Positions 25,640 through 37,555 of a DNA stretch of 44,384 nucleotides are shown piece after piece. Under the pieces are notes generated by a model, which saw only the letters and a list, made by a program, of their open reading frames with translations, was not told the DNA's origin and did not search any database. The DNA is from an uncultured Erysipelotrichaceae bacterium. Its GTDB lineage: Bacteria; Bacillota_I; Bacilli_A; Erysipelotrichales; Erysipelotrichaceae. The position numbers were made by a program, and so were the translations under genes. Location of the stretch: the NCBI GenBank assembly GCA_902793635.1, contig CADBEA010000018.1:1-44384 (forward strand). The letters run 5' to 3'. The first letter of the stretch is position 1. The number at the start of each line of letters is the position of its first letter.

Positions 25640-27124
25640 ATGAATGAACAGCGCACTTACATCGCGATCGATCTGAAATCCTTTTACGCTTCGGTGGAAT
25701 GCGTGGAGCGTCATCTGGATCCTTTGACGACCAATCTGGTCGTCGCTGACGAGAGCCGTTCCAGCAAGACGATCTGTCTGGCCGTGTCCCCTTCCCTGAA
25801 AGCATACGGTATCGGCGGCCGGCCCCGTCTTTTCGAAGTGGAACAGAAAGTAAAAGAGATCAATCAGGAACGGAAAAGAAATTCTTCCCGCGGCCGGCTG
25901 ATGGGCAGTTCCTTTCATGATCCCGATCTGCGGAAGAACCGCGATCTTGCCCTGAGCTATGTCACGGCTGTGCCGCGGATGGCTTTCTATATGGACTACA
26001 GCACAAAGATCTATCAAATCTATCTGAAATATATCGCACCTGAGGATATCCACGTCTATTCGATCGACGAAGTATTCATCGACGCCACGAAATATCTGAA
26101 GACGTACCGGATGAGCGGCCATCAGCTGGCGATGACCATGATCCGCGACGTTCTCAGCACGACCGGCATCACCGCCACCGCCGGTATCGGCACCAATCTC
26201 TATCTTGCCAAGGTGGCTATGGATATCGTCGCCAAGCATATCACGGCCGATCAGGATGGTGTGCGGATTGCCGAACTGGACGAGATGAGCTACCGCCGGC
26301 AGTTGTGGACGCATGAGCCGCTGACCGATTTCTGGCGCATCGGCCGGGGTATCGCCCGCCGGCTGGATCAGTACAATATCAAAGCTATGGGAGACCTGGC
26401 TCGCTTTTCCCTGAAGAAGGAAGATCTTCTCTATAAGGAATTCGGCGTCAATGCCGAACTGATCATCGATCACGCATGGGGATATGAACCCTGTACCATG
26501 GAAGCCATCAAAGCCTATGTGCCGGAGAATCATTCGCTGACAAACGGCCAGGTCCTTGCCGGTCCCTATCCGTTTGAAAAAGGCCGGATCATTGTCCGTG
26601 AGATGGCTGACAGTCTCTGTCTGCAGATGACAGAAAAAGGCCTGGTATGCAATTCGGTGGCGATGAGTGTCGGCTATGACGGCACAGTCGCCATCGAGAA
26701 TTACCAGGGTGCTTATGCGAATGACTGGTACGGCCGCCGCATGCCGAAAGCCGCTTCCGGCAACGTACGGCTCAACCGCTATACCGACAGCTCCCGGCTG
26801 ATCACCGATGCGTTTCTGAAAATCTATGACGAACATGTCGATCCATCGCTGATGGTGCGGCGCTTCTATCTGAGTCTTGGCAATGTCCGCTCAAAAGACA
26901 GCGTTCAGAATCAGACAGTTGTCGAACAGTTTGATCTGTTTGCCGCCCCGGCTGTTTCCCATGAAGAGGAGGAAAAGGAACTGGCGAAGGATGAAAAGAT
27001 CCAGCAGGCCATGGTCGGCATCCGTCAGAAATTCGGCAAGAATGCTGTATTGAAAGGTACAAGTCTGGAAGACGGTGCGACCGGCAAGGAAAGAAACATG
27101 CAGATCGGAGGTCACAAGGGATGA
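25640..27124 (+). CDS. Y-family DNA polymerase (UvrX/DinB-like)
   Basis: 494 aa, longer than DinB because of a C-terminal extension. The catalytic carboxylates are D11 (AIDLKSFYASVE), D143 and E144 (YSIDEVFID). Helix-hairpin-helix and little-finger regions follow. A sliding-clamp motif QFDLF lies at 430-434 and a conserved tail NMQIGGHKG ends the protein. Such enzymes do translesion synthesis. The stop overlaps the ATG of a YolD-like gene (ATGA), the usual UvrX/YolD pairing on chromosomes, prophages and plasmids. Confidence 0.93.
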   Translation: MNEQRTYIAIDLKSFYASVECVERHLDPLTTNLVVADESRSSKTICLAVSPSLKAYGIGGRPRLFEVEQKVKEINQERKRNSSRGRLMGSSFHDPDLRKNRDLALSYVTAVPRMAFYMDYSTKIYQIYLKYIAPEDIHVYSIDEVFIDATKYLKTYRMSGHQLAMTMIRDVLSTTGITATAGIGTNLYLAKVAMDIVAKHITADQDGVRIAELDEMSYRRQLWTHEPLTDFWRIGRGIARRLDQYNIKAMGDLARFSLKKEDLLYKEFGVNAELIIDHAWGYEPCTMEAIKAYVPENHSLTNGQVLAGPYPFEKGRIIVREMADSLCLQMTEKGLVCNSVAMSVGYDGTVAIENYQGAYANDWYGRRMPKAASGNVRLNRYTDSSRLITDAFLKIYDEHVDPSLMVRRFYLSLGNVRSKDSVQNQTVVEQFDLFAAPAVSHEEEEKELAKDEKIQQAMVGIRQKFGKNAVLKGTSLEDGATGKERNMQIGGHKG

Positions 27125-27555
27125 AAGACATACATGAATATGACGATATCATTTCCCTGCCGCATCCGGACTCCGCTTTCCATCCCCGCATGAGCCTGCT
27201 TGAGAGGGCTGCTCAGTTTTCGCCTTTCGCGGCTTTGACCGGCTACGATGACGCGGTGAAGGAAACCGCCCGGCTGACCGATGAAAAGATTGTGTTGAGC
27301 GAAGAGGAACTGAAACAGCTGAATATAAAATTCACCCTTCTGATGCCGCATATCAAGGAACGGCCGGAAGTGACACTGACCCGCTTCATCGCCGATGAAA
27401 AGAAAAGCGGCGGCCGCTATCTGACAGAAACCGTCCGTATCCGCCGTCTGGATCCTGTAAAGCGCATCCTGATCACGGAAGACAACCGGAAGATTTCCCT
27501 TGATGACATCACTGACCTGCAAAATGAATTTTTGAAAACTGAGCCATTTGAGTAG
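27121..27555 (+). CDS. YolD-like protein
   Basis: 144 aa. The family signature SLLERAAQFSPFAALTGYDD lies near residue 22. The C-terminal half is beta-rich. YolD proteins accompany Y-family polymerases and are thought to help or regulate them; the mechanism is not settled. Translationally coupled to the polymerase through ATGA. Confidence 0.9.
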   Translation: MKDIHEYDDIISLPHPDSAFHPRMSLLERAAQFSPFAALTGYDDAVKETARLTDEKIVLSEEELKQLNIKFTLLMPHIKERPEVTLTRFIADEKKSGGRYLTETVRIRRLDPVKRILITEDNRKISLDDITDLQNEFLKTEPFE

Positions 27556-27563
27556 AATGCTGT

Positions 27564-27569
27564 TAGAAT
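27564..27569 (+). promoter_or_regulatory. -10 element 7 nt before the lipase-YhhN ATG
   Basis: TGT followed by TAGAAT (extended -10 type), then seven bases and the ATG at 27577. No SD is visible, so a leaderless transcript is likely. Confidence 0.45.
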
Positions 27570-27576
27570 GTTTATT

Positions 27577-30204
27577 ATGGAAAAAATGGCAAGAAAACTG
27601 TCAGTATTTTTCTTCTGCCTGCTGATCCTGATGACTTCGGTGATCCGTGTCAAAGCGGAAGAATACGATTACGATGATGATGGAACAATTAACCTGGATG
27701 CGACCTACTATGTCATGACTTCCCAGCATGACAATACCATGCAGGTCCCTTTCAACGCACGGTGGTTCGATGCGGACGCCCATATCTACAACCATGATCT
27801 GGCCAAACTTTCACTGGGCTTCGCGGTAGCTTCCTTCCGGCCCAGTAAACAGCATTCCGATCCGAACCGCTCAGCTGATACCAGTGCCATTTCCTTTCTG
27901 GATCAGGCCGGCTTCATCGAAATGCAGAGTGACGACTATGACAAGAACCCGAGCATCTACACGGTTTCGACCGTCATGGGCCATAGGAAGATCGGTGAAG
28001 GTGACGACGCCTTTGAACTGATCGCTATCGGTGTATGCGGCCAGGGTTATCTGGACGAATGGGAATCCAACTTCAGCATTCTCGGTGACGGCTCCGATGA
28101 ATCCCAGTTGCACGATGGCTTCCAGCGTTCTTCCCGGCTGATCTATGACCGTGTGTTCGGCTATATTTCCAGCCATCATCTCTCCGGACCGATCAAGGTC
28201 TGGATCACCGGTTTCTCACGGGCGGCCGCTGTTTCCAATATCACCGCCGCCTGGCTGAGTGATTCCGATATGCTCGGTGAAAACAACGTCTTCGCATATA
28301 CCTTCGCGACACCGCGGACAACACGTGATCCGCAGAGCGAACGTTATCAGAATATCTTCAATATCGTCGGCAAGACCGATCCGGTGCCGCTGGTTCCCTT
28401 CGCTGACTGGGGTTATGACCGCTATGGCGTGACTTATTCCACCCCGTCGCTGGAAACCGATTCCGACTTCCAGCAGAAACGTCTGAAAGCCAATGCCGTA
28501 TACAAGGACATCACCGGTATTGATTACTGGGTCAATCCGGATATGGACAAGCATATCCGCAATATCCTGGACTACTTCCTGAAGATCGTGCCGGATGCGA
28601 AAACCTACCGTGACACCCTGCAGGATGAACTGATCCATCTATGGGCCGACCGCTCACCGATCAATATTCTCGCCCGACTATTGAGCATCGCATCAAAGCC
28701 GGTGCTGATGGACAAAAGTGTCCGCCATGAGGCGAATTCCCTGCTGAACTACATAACTTATCTGCTGATCGATTCCGCGACAAACCGAAGCGCCCAGCGC
28801 AAATGGAACAAGGAAGCTTCCCTGTCCTCCAATATGGCGCAGGCGCATACGCCGGAACTGTATATCTCATGGGTCTTCTCAGCTGACCGCCCAGAAGACC
28901 TCTACTCCGAGCAGGATTCTTTCCAGTACATCTATCTGGACCATTCTTCGGGTAATCTGGTCGTGGAACTGTACCTGGATGATCAGCTGATCGAAAGGAT
29001 CGATGACAGCCAGCCTGCCCCGGATGAAAAAAATGTCTATCTCATGCAGTCAGATGACAGTATCACTGCCCAGATTCCCAATGACAAAGACTATCAGCTG
29101 TACATCACGGCCAACACGAATGAGATCCTGCTGATGGGTCTGACCAACGCGGTTTACCGGGTCGGACACCATTCCCCGGAACACACGGTCAGAAACTACT
29201 ACTTCCTGGATGACAAAGATACCATTTCCCTGCTGCTGACAACCGACGGTCAGGTCATCGCCTCCAAGCCGGAGGATTCTTCCGCCTTCATCGTTTATGA
29301 ATCGGATGAGTATCTTGATACCTCCACCGTTATCGCGACGGAACGCCATAACATGCTGAACCTGACCTGGCGCACGATCATTATGCTGCTGATCACAGCG
29401 ATCATCATCATTGGCTCGCTGCTGATGTATCAGGTCGTCTGGTTGGTAACCCGCTTCCGTTTCAACTGGCTGGTGAAGATCGGCTGGATCAAGCCGACCG
29501 AGAAATTCCATTCTCTGCCGATGTTCTGTTTCTTCTCCATGTCCTCAATCTTTGTCATCGAGGAATTCTTCGCCGTCCTGTATCCGGATGACCTGCTGAT
29601 TCATCTGCTGTTCAAGGGACTGATCGGCCTGCTGTCCGTTCTGGTTGCCTGGATCGGCTATAAGCACCATAAGACACGGCTGAATATGATGATCGTCATT
29701 GCCCTGGCCGCATTGACTGTCGCTGACGTGGTGACCCGTGTCAACCTGCGGCTTGGCACCTTCCTCCACATGGCCAGTTACGGCCTGCTGATCTTTACTT
29801 TCTATCGGGAAGAAAAGCCTGTCTGGCAGCAGTATAAGATCTTCATTTTCCTGGCCGCCCTTGCCTTCGGCATTACCATGGGGCTTGAGGGAGATTATCG
29901 GACCGACCGTCTGCTGGCCTTTGCCTATCTGCTTACCGCCCTGTACATGGTCGTATGTTCCTTCCCGCTGCCGCGCCGCTGCTTTACCGGATCGATCCTG
30001 CTTATGCTTGGCGGTGTTCTGCTGATCACCACCAACGTGCTCAGGATCAGCACTGAATTCCTGCCGCATATGGTTTCCCTGGGTACCTATTATGCCGGCA
30101 TTGCCACCCTTGCCTCAACCGGTGTGCGCATGCCGATTGCGAAACTGGTGCCGGTTTACGATGATGAAACACCGCCGGCCAGCCAGCCGCTGCCGGAGCA
30201 GTAA
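27577..30204 (+). CDS. Secreted lipase-like domain fused to a YhhN-like membrane domain
   Basis: 875 aa. Signal peptide (KLSVFFFCLLILMTSVI), then an extracytoplasmic class 3 lipase-like domain with nucleophile elbow ITGFSRAAA (S214) and a likely Asp in IVGKTDPVPL. A beta-rich region (about 430-580) follows. From ~600 come a membrane helix and, at 644-860, about eight helices resembling YhhN (lysoplasmalogenase family: LFKGLIGLL, ADVVTRVN, GTYYAGIATLAST). The usual second SD motif is TTN here. A phospholipid or lysolipid hydrolase acting at the membrane is plausible. Start at 27577 rather than 27568, which lies within the -10. Confidence 0.8.
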   Translation: MEKMARKLSVFFFCLLILMTSVIRVKAEEYDYDDDGTINLDATYYVMTSQHDNTMQVPFNARWFDADAHIYNHDLAKLSLGFAVASFRPSKQHSDPNRSADTSAISFLDQAGFIEMQSDDYDKNPSIYTVSTVMGHRKIGEGDDAFELIAIGVCGQGYLDEWESNFSILGDGSDESQLHDGFQRSSRLIYDRVFGYISSHHLSGPIKVWITGFSRAAAVSNITAAWLSDSDMLGENNVFAYTFATPRTTRDPQSERYQNIFNIVGKTDPVPLVPFADWGYDRYGVTYSTPSLETDSDFQQKRLKANAVYKDITGIDYWVNPDMDKHIRNILDYFLKIVPDAKTYRDTLQDELIHLWADRSPINILARLLSIASKPVLMDKSVRHEANSLLNYITYLLIDSATNRSAQRKWNKEASLSSNMAQAHTPELYISWVFSADRPEDLYSEQDSFQYIYLDHSSGNLVVELYLDDQLIERIDDSQPAPDEKNVYLMQSDDSITAQIPNDKDYQLYITANTNEILLMGLTNAVYRVGHHSPEHTVRNYYFLDDKDTISLLLTTDGQVIASKPEDSSAFIVYESDEYLDTSTVIATERHNMLNLTWRTIIMLLITAIIIIGSLLMYQVVWLVTRFRFNWLVKIGWIKPTEKFHSLPMFCFFSMSSIFVIEEFFAVLYPDDLLIHLLFKGLIGLLSVLVAWIGYKHHKTRLNMMIVIALAALTVADVVTRVNLRLGTFLHMASYGLLIFTFYREEKPVWQQYKIFIFLAALAFGITMGLEGDYRTDRLLAFAYLLTALYMVVCSFPLPRRCFTGSILLMLGGVLLITTNVLRISTEFLPHMVSLGTYYAGIATLASTGVRMPIAKLVPVYDDETPPASQPLPEQ

Positions 30205-30215
30205 ACTGAACATGA

Positions 30216-30248
30216 AAAAGCTCATACCTGTGTGTATGAGCTCTTTTT
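30216..30248. terminator. Bidirectional terminator
   Basis: AAAAAGCTCATAC-CTGTGT-GTATGAGCTCTTTTT serves the convergent genes at 27577 and 30902. Confidence 0.88.
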
Positions 30249-33488: not shown

Positions 33489-34052
33489 TCAGAATATGCT
33501 CAGCAGGACAATGCCCGCGACGCCGGCAGCAGCCATCACCTTGATGGGGTCCGGTTTTTTCAGACGCAGGACTGTCAGCGCTGTGACAAAGATCAGAAGC
33601 GGAATCCACTGCACTGCCGTCAGGTCAGCCGGCAGTGCTCTCTGCCCGTATACGCTCAGAATGATCAGGGACAGACCGGCGGAAGCGATCATCGCGATCA
33701 CAGCCGGCCGGAGTCCGAGGAGCACTCCCTGGATATAGGACAGACCGCGGTAGCGGTAATACAGATACGCCAGCAGCAGGACGATCAGGCTGCCGGGAAG
33801 AACACAGCCGGCCGTCGCAACCAGAGCACCGGGTATGCCGGCCGTCTGAATACCGACGAAAGTCGCCGAATTGACCGCAATCGGACCCGGTGTCATTTCC
33901 GCGATCGTCATCAGATCAGCGAACTGTGTCATGGTCAGCCAGCCGTGGATATCAACCGCCTGCGCCTGAATCAGCGGCATCGCCGCATATCCGCCGCCGA
34001 TCGAGAAGAGACCGATTTTCATAAAGCTCAGAAACAGTTCAAGATAAATCAT
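33489..34052 (-). CDS. Chromate transporter, short ChrA subunit
   Basis: 187 aa, about six helices. CHR motifs: KIGLFSIGGGYAAMPLI and EMTPGPIAVNSATFVG. Half-length CHR proteins pair with a second half encoded next to them and export chromate in studied cases. The ATG overlaps the upstream stop (TGATG) and has the SD GGAGAGGGG. Second gene of the chr pair. Confidence 0.9.
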   Translation of the reverse strand: MIYLELFLSFMKIGLFSIGGGYAAMPLIQAQAVDIHGWLTMTQFADLMTIAEMTPGPIAVNSATFVGIQTAGIPGALVATAGCVLPGSLIVLLLAYLYYRYRGLSYIQGVLLGLRPAVIAMIASAGLSLIILSVYGQRALPADLTAVQWIPLLIFVTALTVLRLKKPDPIKVMAAAGVAGIVLLSIF

Positions 34053-34642
34053 CAGTATCCCCTCTCCTTTTCGGCTCTGTTGGAACTCCATATCTGCAGG
34101 GCGCCGATACAGCCGCAGATCAGAATGACCATAATGATATTGAGATGGAAATAACGGACGGCAATGAAACTGAGAAGCATCATGATGACAGGCACCGCCT
34201 TCCGGCTGCGCACCAGGTCTGTTCCCATCCGCAGCACGACATCCGTGATGACCGCCGCGACACCTGCCAGCATACCACTCATGGCATAGCTGACATAGAT
34301 ATTGTCACGGAAAGCCTGATAGAAGGATGAAATCACCGAGATGATGATCAGCGGCGGAAGCACGGTCGCTGTCAGGGAAACAATTGCTCCGGCAAGACCG
34401 CCGACCCTGTATCCGACAAGTGTCGCGGCATTTACCGCTATGGCGCCTGGTGAGGACTGGGCGATCGCCGTCAGGTCGAGCATTTCTTCTTCGTCGATAT
34501 AATGCAGTTCATCGACGAATTTCTTTTTCATTAACGGGATGATGACAAACCCGCCGCCGAACGTGCAGGCACTGAGGGTGAAAGAGGATGCGAACAGTTT
34601 CAGAAACTGATTCAGTTTTCCTGGTTTTTCCGTTTTTTCCAT
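34052..34642 (-). CDS. Chromate transporter, short ChrA subunit
   Basis: 196 aa, homologous partner of the next gene: FTLSACTFGGGFVIIPLM and QSSPGAIAVNAATLVGY. Start at 34642 (AAGGAG at 11 nt) is preferred to 34651, where the SD would be only 2 nt away. Divergent from a LysR gene, a common arrangement for control of short ChrA pairs. Confidence 0.88.
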   Translation of the reverse strand: MEKTEKPGKLNQFLKLFASSFTLSACTFGGGFVIIPLMKKKFVDELHYIDEEEMLDLTAIAQSSPGAIAVNAATLVGYRVGGLAGAIVSLTATVLPPLIIISVISSFYQAFRDNIYVSYAMSGMLAGVAAVITDVVLRMGTDLVRSRKAVPVIMMLLSFIAVRYFHLNIIMVILICGCIGALQIWSSNRAEKERGY

Positions 34643-34688
34643 TGCTGACATTACTCCTTTACAGAAATATCTTAGTGTCTTTTCGTTT

Positions 34689-34746: not shown

Positions 34747-35658
34747 ATGACGATCCGTCACATTGAAATCTTTCTCGCTGTCTGTGATTCCGGCTGCAAC
34801 ATGACGAAGGCGGCCGAAAAACTGCACATTGCCCAGCCGGCCGTCAGTACCGCAATCAAGGAACTGGAAGATCATTACGGGATCATGCTGTTTGAACGGC
34901 TTGGCAGAAGACTGCAGATCACCGAAGCGGGAATGCGTCTAAAAGAATATGCTCAGAGTATGGTGGAACTGATGGATGACATGGAAGGCAGTATGAAAAA
35001 AGCCGACAGCATCGGTCCCATCCGGATCGGCGCATCCATGACCATCGGTTCGGTTCTTCTGCCTGACTACATCAAGACATTCAGCCGGCTGATTCCCGAG
35101 ATCCAGACCCATATCCTGGTAGCGCCAGGTGATGTTCTGGAAGAAAAACTGCTGAACAACGAACTGGATATTGCCTTAAAGGAAGGCGCCGTCATGTCGC
35201 CGCTGATCGATTCCGAACCCTTTATGACCGATTCCCTGATTCCGGTATGCGCGGCGGATTACGGCTTTGCAAGTGGCCAGGTTCTCAGTATGGAAGAATA
35301 CCGCCGGCTTCCTTATCTGCTCAGGGAAAAAGGCAGCGGAACAAGAGAAACGTTTGACCACGCTGCCGCGGCGGCCGGCTTTTCACCGGTTCCGGTATGG
35401 GAGGCTCACAGTACGACCGCGCTGATCAACGCGGCTGCCAAAGGACTGGGTGTGGCAGTCCTTCCCAGCCGTCTTGTGGCCGGCGCTCTCTTAAGCGGGA
35501 AGATCATTCCCCTTTCCTTTGCCGGCATGAATCTGACACGATATTTCAGTATTATCTATCACCGCCGCAAGCATCTGACTTCCGCCGCGATCCGATTTAT
35601 TGAACTGTGCCGCCATTATGAAGACAACTATCCGGTGATCCATGACAGCGGAATATGA
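34747..35658 (+). CDS. LysR-family transcriptional regulator
   Basis: 303 aa. N-terminal winged helix (NMTKAAEKLHIAQPAVSTAI), linker helix, then the periplasmic-binding-protein-like effector domain (IRIGASMTIGSVLLPDYI). Probably controls the divergent chrA pair; the effector may be an oxyanion. SD AAGGAG. Confidence 0.93.
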   Translation: MTIRHIEIFLAVCDSGCNMTKAAEKLHIAQPAVSTAIKELEDHYGIMLFERLGRRLQITEAGMRLKEYAQSMVELMDDMEGSMKKADSIGPIRIGASMTIGSVLLPDYIKTFSRLIPEIQTHILVAPGDVLEEKLLNNELDIALKEGAVMSPLIDSEPFMTDSLIPVCAADYGFASGQVLSMEEYRRLPYLLREKGSGTRETFDHAAAAAGFSPVPVWEAHSTTALINAAAKGLGVAVLPSRLVAGALLSGKIIPLSFAGMNLTRYFSIIYHRRKHLTSAAIRFIELCRHYEDNYPVIHDSGI

Positions 35659-36863: not shown

Positions 36864-36895
36864 GGAATCAGGATATGATTCCAGGGAGGCAGATC

Positions 36896-37555
36896 ATGTA
36901 TTATCTTATACCCTTATGTCTAATTCTCGCTGCCGTTTTTATCCTGCAGGAAAAGCAGGAAAACTACACAGCCGCCGTTATTCTGAAAGGTCTGGCGTCT
37001 CTCTGCTTTGTCGTCTTCGGACTTTCCCTTTCCAGCGGATTGCCGATGAGCCGGCTGATCACCGCCGGTCTGATGCTGGGATGCGTCGCTGATGTGCTGC
37101 TGAACCTGCGCTTTGTTCTGAAAGAAGCAGGCCAGATCGTCTTCCTGGTCGGCATCCTCGTCTTTCTGAGCGGCCATATCGCCTATCTGATGGCAATCAT
37201 GCCGCTGGCGCAGCACCGCTTCACCTATGTGATCATTGCCCTGGTGCTGACCGCTCTGTTAATGAAATGGATCTTCACGAAAATCGAGGCGAAACGAGCG
37301 TTCAAAATCTTCGGGATATTCTATATCGGCGCCATTGTCCTGCTCAACGTCGTGGCCATCGGCAATCTGATTTTCGAGCCGGACACCTTCCGGATGATCT
37401 TCGCCGCCGGTGCCCTGCTGTTTCTGATCAGTGACATCGTTCTGATTCTCAATACGTTCGGACCCGAGCAGAAGTTCGTTCTGCGGGTGACGAATCTGTC
37501 CCTGTACTATATCGGCCAGATTCTGATTGCCCTCAGCCTGATGTTTCTCAACTGA
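36896..37555 (+). CDS. YhhN-family membrane protein (lysoplasmalogenase-like)
   Basis: 219 aa, about eight helices. Family positions are ILKGLASLCFV, GCVADVLLN, SGHIAYLMAI, LISDIVLILNTF and LSLYYIGQILIAL. Characterised relatives (TMEM86, bacterial YhhN) hydrolyse lysoplasmalogens at the membrane. Start at 36896 with SD GGGAGG; the longer frame from 36875 adds seven residues without an SD. A second YhhN-like domain occurs in the fusion at 27577-30204. Confidence 0.88.
   Translation: MYYLIPLCLILAAVFILQEKQENYTAAVILKGLASLCFVVFGLSLSSGLPMSRLITAGLMLGCVADVLLNLRFVLKEAGQIVFLVGILVFLSGHIAYLMAIMPLAQHRFTYVIIALVLTALLMKWIFTKIEAKRAFKIFGIFYIGAIVLLNVVAIGNLIFEPDTFRMIFAAGALLFLISDIVLILNTFGPEQKFVLRVTNLSLYYIGQILIALSLMFLN

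Follow-up and report, generated by a model that had tools for sequence, protein, structure and literature searches.

The window analysed here, a stretch of 44,384 nucleotides (positions 1 to 44,384 of contig CADBEA010000018.1, assembly GCA_902793635.1) of an uncultured Erysipelotrichaceae bacterium, contains on its plus strand a single open reading frame (27568..30204) that encodes a fusion protein of 878 amino acids, or of 875 amino acids if translation starts at 27577. The latter position, which was taken as the start in a preliminary description of this DNA and corresponds to Met4 of the 27568 frame, is at least as likely because many homologues begin at a position aligned to Met3 or Met4. 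Residues are counted here from 27568, such that three must be subtracted for the later start. The product begins with a predicted signal peptide (27577..27657), as judged from hydropathy (hydrophobic residues 10-28) and from an alignment in which A30 is near-invariant. This is followed by a class-3 lipase ectodomain (∼residues 69-440; 27772..28887), assigned from Pfam Lipase_3, residue invariance and VIA-align, and by a β-strand-rich linker domain (∼residues 441-594; 28888..29349) that was delimited in the AlphaFold2 model and has no family match. Models and loop charges place an extra anchor transmembrane helix and the charged loop after it at ∼residues 601-649 (29368..29514), and an eight-helix YhhN-like domain occupies ∼residues 650-853 (29515..30126), as supported by PF07947, hhalign, residue tables and models. 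A terminator-like hairpin with a T-rich tail (30219..30242, plus strand), recognized by consensus match only, lies directly 3′ of the stop codon. An NCBIfam scan of the fusion protein gave no significant match.

The length of the protein and both of its halves are conserved across 50 full-length non-redundant homologues (<98% identical; 838-1113 amino acids), and it is because of this conservation that the fusion is not considered a chance or assembly artefact. A chance open frame, a frameshift or the misassembly of two genes was ruled out, the full length being shared by homologues from many assemblies. Among 60 genomes searched, many of those from the same genus encode the full-length fusion, and profile searches of 244 genomes of the family and 294 of the order revealed it in several genera of Erysipelotrichaceae. 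Family members come mostly from gut metagenome bins; the named relatives are gut bins from goat, sheep and cattle that carry the labels Solobacterium or Erysipelotrichaceae, together with one isolate, NK3D112 (JNJQ01000001), and the bin of one relative, labelled Mogibacterium, may be misnamed. When 392 genomes of the phylum were searched with the full profile and the best two candidates per genome were inspected, no full-length fusion was found outside the window's genome, the sole matches elsewhere being lipase-only relatives. In 294 other phylum genomes, no YhhN open frame exceeded 271 amino acids. In one genome (G001), the fusion gene is split by an apparent frameshift.

Residues 178-279 matched Pfam Lipase_3 (PF01764) with 44.1 bits, above the cut-off of 22. 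The GFSRA motif spans residues 215-219 and supplies the putative nucleophile S217 (S214 from the later start); the predicted triad S217/D271/H427 is conserved in 49, 50 and 50 of the 50 homologues, respectively, in agreement with the preliminary lipase assignment, which called for S214 to lie in a catalytic triad. The predicted oxyanion loop consists of G158-Q-G160..E164-W165, with G158 present in 50/50, and the GQGY-EW-SN motif was found in 32/32 proteins of the first homologue set. A full-length model was obtained at medium confidence (pLDDT 75.6, pTM 0.60). VIA-align of this model gave Z values of 15.0-15.4 against CaPLA1, AtDSEL, the R. miehei lipase, the A. oryzae MDG lipase and the M37 lipase, the best match being the plant PLA1 CaPLA1 (Z 15.4, 252 residues, rmsd 4.3), and the top Foldseek matches were class-3 lipases and feruloyl esterases. 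The PF01764 score above cut-off, the signal segment and the class-3 lipase fold of the model bear out the secreted GFSRA lipase-type domain that had been proposed, and the conserved features of this half are, by sequence and model, those of an active enzyme. The fold, the oxyanion loop, the GxSxA elbow and the triad Asp and His are common to the class-3 lipases (PF01764; fungal enzymes and the plant PLA1 proteins CaPLA1 and AtDSEL), but the fusion carries in addition a β domain and nine membrane helices, and no characterized member with a YhhN-type domain was found.

Several divergent forms of the lipase domain were also observed. In L109:1177-4503 (G082:C12), GYGRA replaces GFSRA, such that Gly takes the place of the nucleophile Ser, but D271 and H427 are still present; this frame is longer at its C terminus, and a second, serine-bearing copy (L124) is present in the same genome. 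A related lipase domain (∼27-41% identical) lies within open frames of 1000-3400 amino acids (L020, L026, L028, G002:C14, G005:C51 and G261:C26), and in L028 it is preceded N-terminally by glycine- and asparagine-rich repeats.

Hydropathy indicates a membrane domain from ∼residue 600 onward, and the model resolves this region into nine helices, an anchor at 598-635 and then eight from 647 to 850 (875-amino acid numbering). The loop charges alternate in a manner that fits an ectodomain outside and a C terminus inside. Modelled alone, the membrane domain was predicted confidently (pLDDT 88.2, pTM 0.82). Hmmscan gave no YhhN hit for the window's fusion protein; in a genome search with PF07947 (YhhN), the window copy scored 21.8 bits, just below the cut-off of 25.6, and several orthologues exceeded the cut-off, with scores of up to 39.5 bits. 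Comparison of the fused domain with stand-alone YhhN by hhalign gave a probability of 96.9% (E 2e-10) over 182 columns. VIA-align of the membrane-domain model returned rhodopsin/GPCR matches at modest Z values of up to 9.8, and for helical bundles a VIA Z below ∼13 is weak fold evidence by itself; these matches nevertheless agree with a published YhhN model that is GPCR-like with one extra N-terminal helix (PMC4602095). A Foldseek search restricted to the membrane domain returned no significant hit, and no solved structure of a YhhN relative was found by sequence. The orthologue PF07947 scores, the hhalign result and the models therefore assign the domain to the YhhN lineage, preceded by an additional anchor helix. 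Taken as a whole, the fusion has the predicted layout of a membrane-tethered extracellular lipase, in which the exported ectodomain is followed by the β domain, the anchor helix and the YhhN-type helices.

The residues required for lysoplasmalogenase activity have been mapped in human TMEM86A and TMEM86B, where replacing K43, D82, D190, Y213 or certain other residues by alanine abolishes most of the activity (TMEM86A numbering, which is used here also for H104 and S189); TMEM86A D190A is left with <10% activity (PMC11994398), and reduced activity was likewise found for D82A and D190A (PMC9283435). The window copy of the fusion keeps K683 (equivalent to K43), D720 (D82) and the YY841-842 site (Y213), and H104, S189 and D190 are replaced by Y738, G815 and G816, respectively. 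Across the 50 fusions, the D190 site is occupied by Gly (41), Asn (8) or Thr (1) and never by Asp, the H104 position holds Tyr in 32 and His in none, and Ser is found at the S189 position in 27. The K43 and D82 equivalents are each present in 48/50, and Tyr at 842 in 49/50. By comparison, each of 30 canonical stand-alone YhhNs in the same order contains K43, D82, S189, D190 and Y213, with H104 in 28/30, and D190 is Asp in 8/8 complete stand-alone sister YhhNs. The essential set K43, D82, S189, D190 and Y213 is thus incomplete in the fusions. A register error hiding Asp190 was ruled out: an acidic residue occurs in the D190 helix in only 4/33 fusions, nearer its distal end and away from the site, and none lies at the site. 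A His is present in the stretch around Y738 in 19/33 fusions, one helical turn away.

With the YhhN/TMEM86 lysoplasmalogenases (E. coli YhhN, L. pneumophila Lpg1991, M. tuberculosis Rv1401 and human TMEM86A/B), the fusions have in common the eight-helix domain, its ancestry and the K43, D82, G182 and Y213 equivalents. They differ in the change of D190 to Gly, Asn or Thr in all members, in a mostly Tyr H104 position, and in the extra N-terminal anchor helix and 600-amino acid ectodomain. The best reading of these residue patterns is that the YhhN-like domain of the fusions is a pseudoenzyme that no longer cleaves vinyl ethers. The preliminary recognition of a YhhN-like eight-helix domain is consequently upheld for ancestry and fold, by PF07947 in orthologues, hhalign and the models, but not for a functional enzyme, given the loss of D190.

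A tree from which the S189, D190 and H104 columns had been left out grouped the fused domains in one clade (100/98) and the canonical YhhNs in another (100/99). In this tree, the fused domain is most closely related to stand-alone YhhN paralogues of ∼248 amino acids from the same family (L094-L102), which are unfused and keep D82, H104 and D190, with S189 in 7/8. We infer that the YhhN-like domain of the fusions descends from an active lysoplasmalogenase; the simplest reading of the sequences is that the residues were lost at about the time the fusion arose, Gly and Asn now being fixed in different clades. For the window copy and its relative L031 (85% identical), dN/dS was 0.095 in the lipase, 0.21 in the linker domain and 0.225 in the YhhN part. 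The YhhN-like domain is maintained by purifying selection, less strictly than the lipase.

This third stand-alone YhhN group, sister to the fused domain and likewise with D82, H104 and D190, takes in L094-L105 (G014:C2, G193:C16, G256:C200, G273:C18, G260:C121, G284:C1, G309:C9, G176:C63 and others). In-frame stops were seen in several sister copies (G005:C82, G018:C73, G004:C40, G193:C16 and G277:C33), which suggests frequent decay or assembly errors. A 383-amino acid frame elsewhere, L108:1810-2961 (G030:C69), encodes a very divergent YhhN-like domain with a C-terminal soluble part; in this domain K43 is changed to Arg, D190 is kept and the tree branch is very long.

The fusion gene starts 12-21 bases after UmuC-like and weakly YolD-like genes. 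In the window (25640-27555), the gene for the UmuC-like translesion polymerase overlaps by 4 bases the gene with the weak YolD-like match; the pair is kept upstream of the fusion in L031, and the UmuC-like gene alone in L047. Downstream, two adjacent minus-strand genes of ∼200 amino acids each (33489-34651) appear by eye to be the halves of a split chromate-type transporter, and a LysR-like regulator at 34747 is divergent from them. Neighbourhood comparison revealed no conserved genomic partner of the fusion gene beyond close relatives.

The free-standing YhhN noted in the preliminary description was confirmed 6.7 kb downstream of the fusion gene (36875..37555, plus strand; PF07947, 91.7 bits) as a canonical protein of 226 amino acids in which the residue table shows the essential residues to be present. 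An operon comprising the fusion and this gene was ruled out, as opposite-strand genes lie between them. The arrangement of a fusion with a nearby free YhhN recurs in just one other close relative (L047), the L031 sequence ending before this point. A further canonical YhhN is encoded on another contig of the window's genome. Judged by its residues, the free YhhN can alone supply any lysoplasmalogenase activity. No match to DUF2229, which we take to be a marker of PlsA, the anaerobic plasmalogen synthase, was obtained for the window's genome (95% complete); among members of the genus, 2/12 fusion carriers and 6/12 non-carriers had one. This spread therefore provides no link between the fusion and plasmalogen making. 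A review lists plsA/plsR in Erysipelotrichales.

It had been suggested in the preliminary description that the two halves act in sequence, removing an acyl chain and then the lyso-lipid head group or the vinyl ether. The head-group variant is not supported, since the known YhhN reaction is cleavage of the vinyl ether of lysoplasmalogen and not head-group hydrolysis (PMC9052158). Bifunctional plasmalogen degradation, in which removal of the sn-2 acyl chain by the lipase would be followed by cleavage of the lysoplasmalogen vinyl ether in the YhhN domain, is very improbable. Both halves are homologous to enzymes catalysing such steps, the D82, K43 and Y213 equivalents are kept, and the loop charges place the ectodomain outside, on the side of presumed YhhN substrate entry (PMC9052158). 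However, two-step cleavage is unlikely because Asp190 is absent in 50/50 fusions; S189 is often and H104 always replaced, and TMEM86A D190 mutants are nearly dead (PMC11994398, PMC9283435). That DUF2229 is without a match in the window's genome and is rarer among carriers than among non-carriers also speaks against this route. Class-3 lipases, moreover, mostly cut at sn-1/sn-3 (PLA1 type) and not at sn-2.

The protein is instead probably a membrane-tethered extracellular (phospho)lipase, as its sequence and models suggest, in which the pseudoenzyme YhhN-like domain would provide the anchor and might also offer a binding platform for a lysolipid or an acyl chain. The signal peptide would export the class-3 α/β-hydrolase lipase, which the β domain and the one anchor helix would link to the eight-helix YhhN-type domain. 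The substrates of the lipase would be (phospho)lipids or acylglycerols, located at the outer face of the membrane or derived from the gut lumen, in which it would hydrolyse an acyl ester, and the YhhN-like domain, lacking Asp190 and His104, would cleave no vinyl ether and act as an anchor. More speculatively, a pocket of this domain that would open outwards may bind or dock a lysolipid or the released acyl chain, the retained Lys, Asp and Tyr perhaps mediating binding of the lysolipid or of the product or substrate acyl chain.

That the membrane domain is an anchor only, with the retained residues as structural remnants, is possible but doubtful. Related lipase domains in the same genus, in proteins of 624-736 amino acids and in the 1000-3400-amino acid frames, occur without the membrane domain, which speaks for this reading; yet one anchor helix already precedes the eight-helix domain, and conservation of D720 (48/50), K683 (48/50) and Y842 (49/50) is stronger than an anchor needs. 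The preservation of most K43, D82 and Y213 equivalents would be surprising in a domain that serves solely as an anchor, and a different chemistry is conceivable. It appears unlikely that evolution has turned the domain into a receptor or transporter for the product of the lipase, be it a lysolipid, a fatty acid or a monoacylglycerol, so that lipolysis outside the cell would be coupled to uptake or signalling. The GPCR/rhodopsin-like fold of the model, conservation of the pocket residues K683, D720 and Y842, purifying selection on the domain and competitive inhibition of a canonical YhhN by lysophosphatidic acid (PMC9052158) are consistent with such a role, but the fusion has no cytoplasmic effector domain and no conserved neighbour gene to receive a signal, and constraint is relaxed in comparison with the lipase. 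Similarly tentative, and unlikely in our estimation, is the notion of a GPCR-like-fold chimera, in which an extracellular lipase captured a lysoplasmalogenase fold that lost catalysis and would now serve as a membrane receptor or relay for the lipase product.

A literature search found no paper describing a lipase-YhhN protein, in line with the preliminary view that no protein of this form had been described. The architecture thus appears to be undescribed: both domain families are known, and their combination with a degenerate YhhN site appears to be new. For annotation, a PF07947 match above the cut-off need not mean lysoplasmalogenase activity. The fusions also constitute a natural set of YhhN domains that lack Asp190 and retain Asp82, Lys43 and Tyr213, and so offer a tool for dissecting the lysoplasmalogenase mechanism. 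Conserved across a family of gut bacteria, this architecture would clearly exemplify how the fold of an enzyme can become an accessory module in the membrane.
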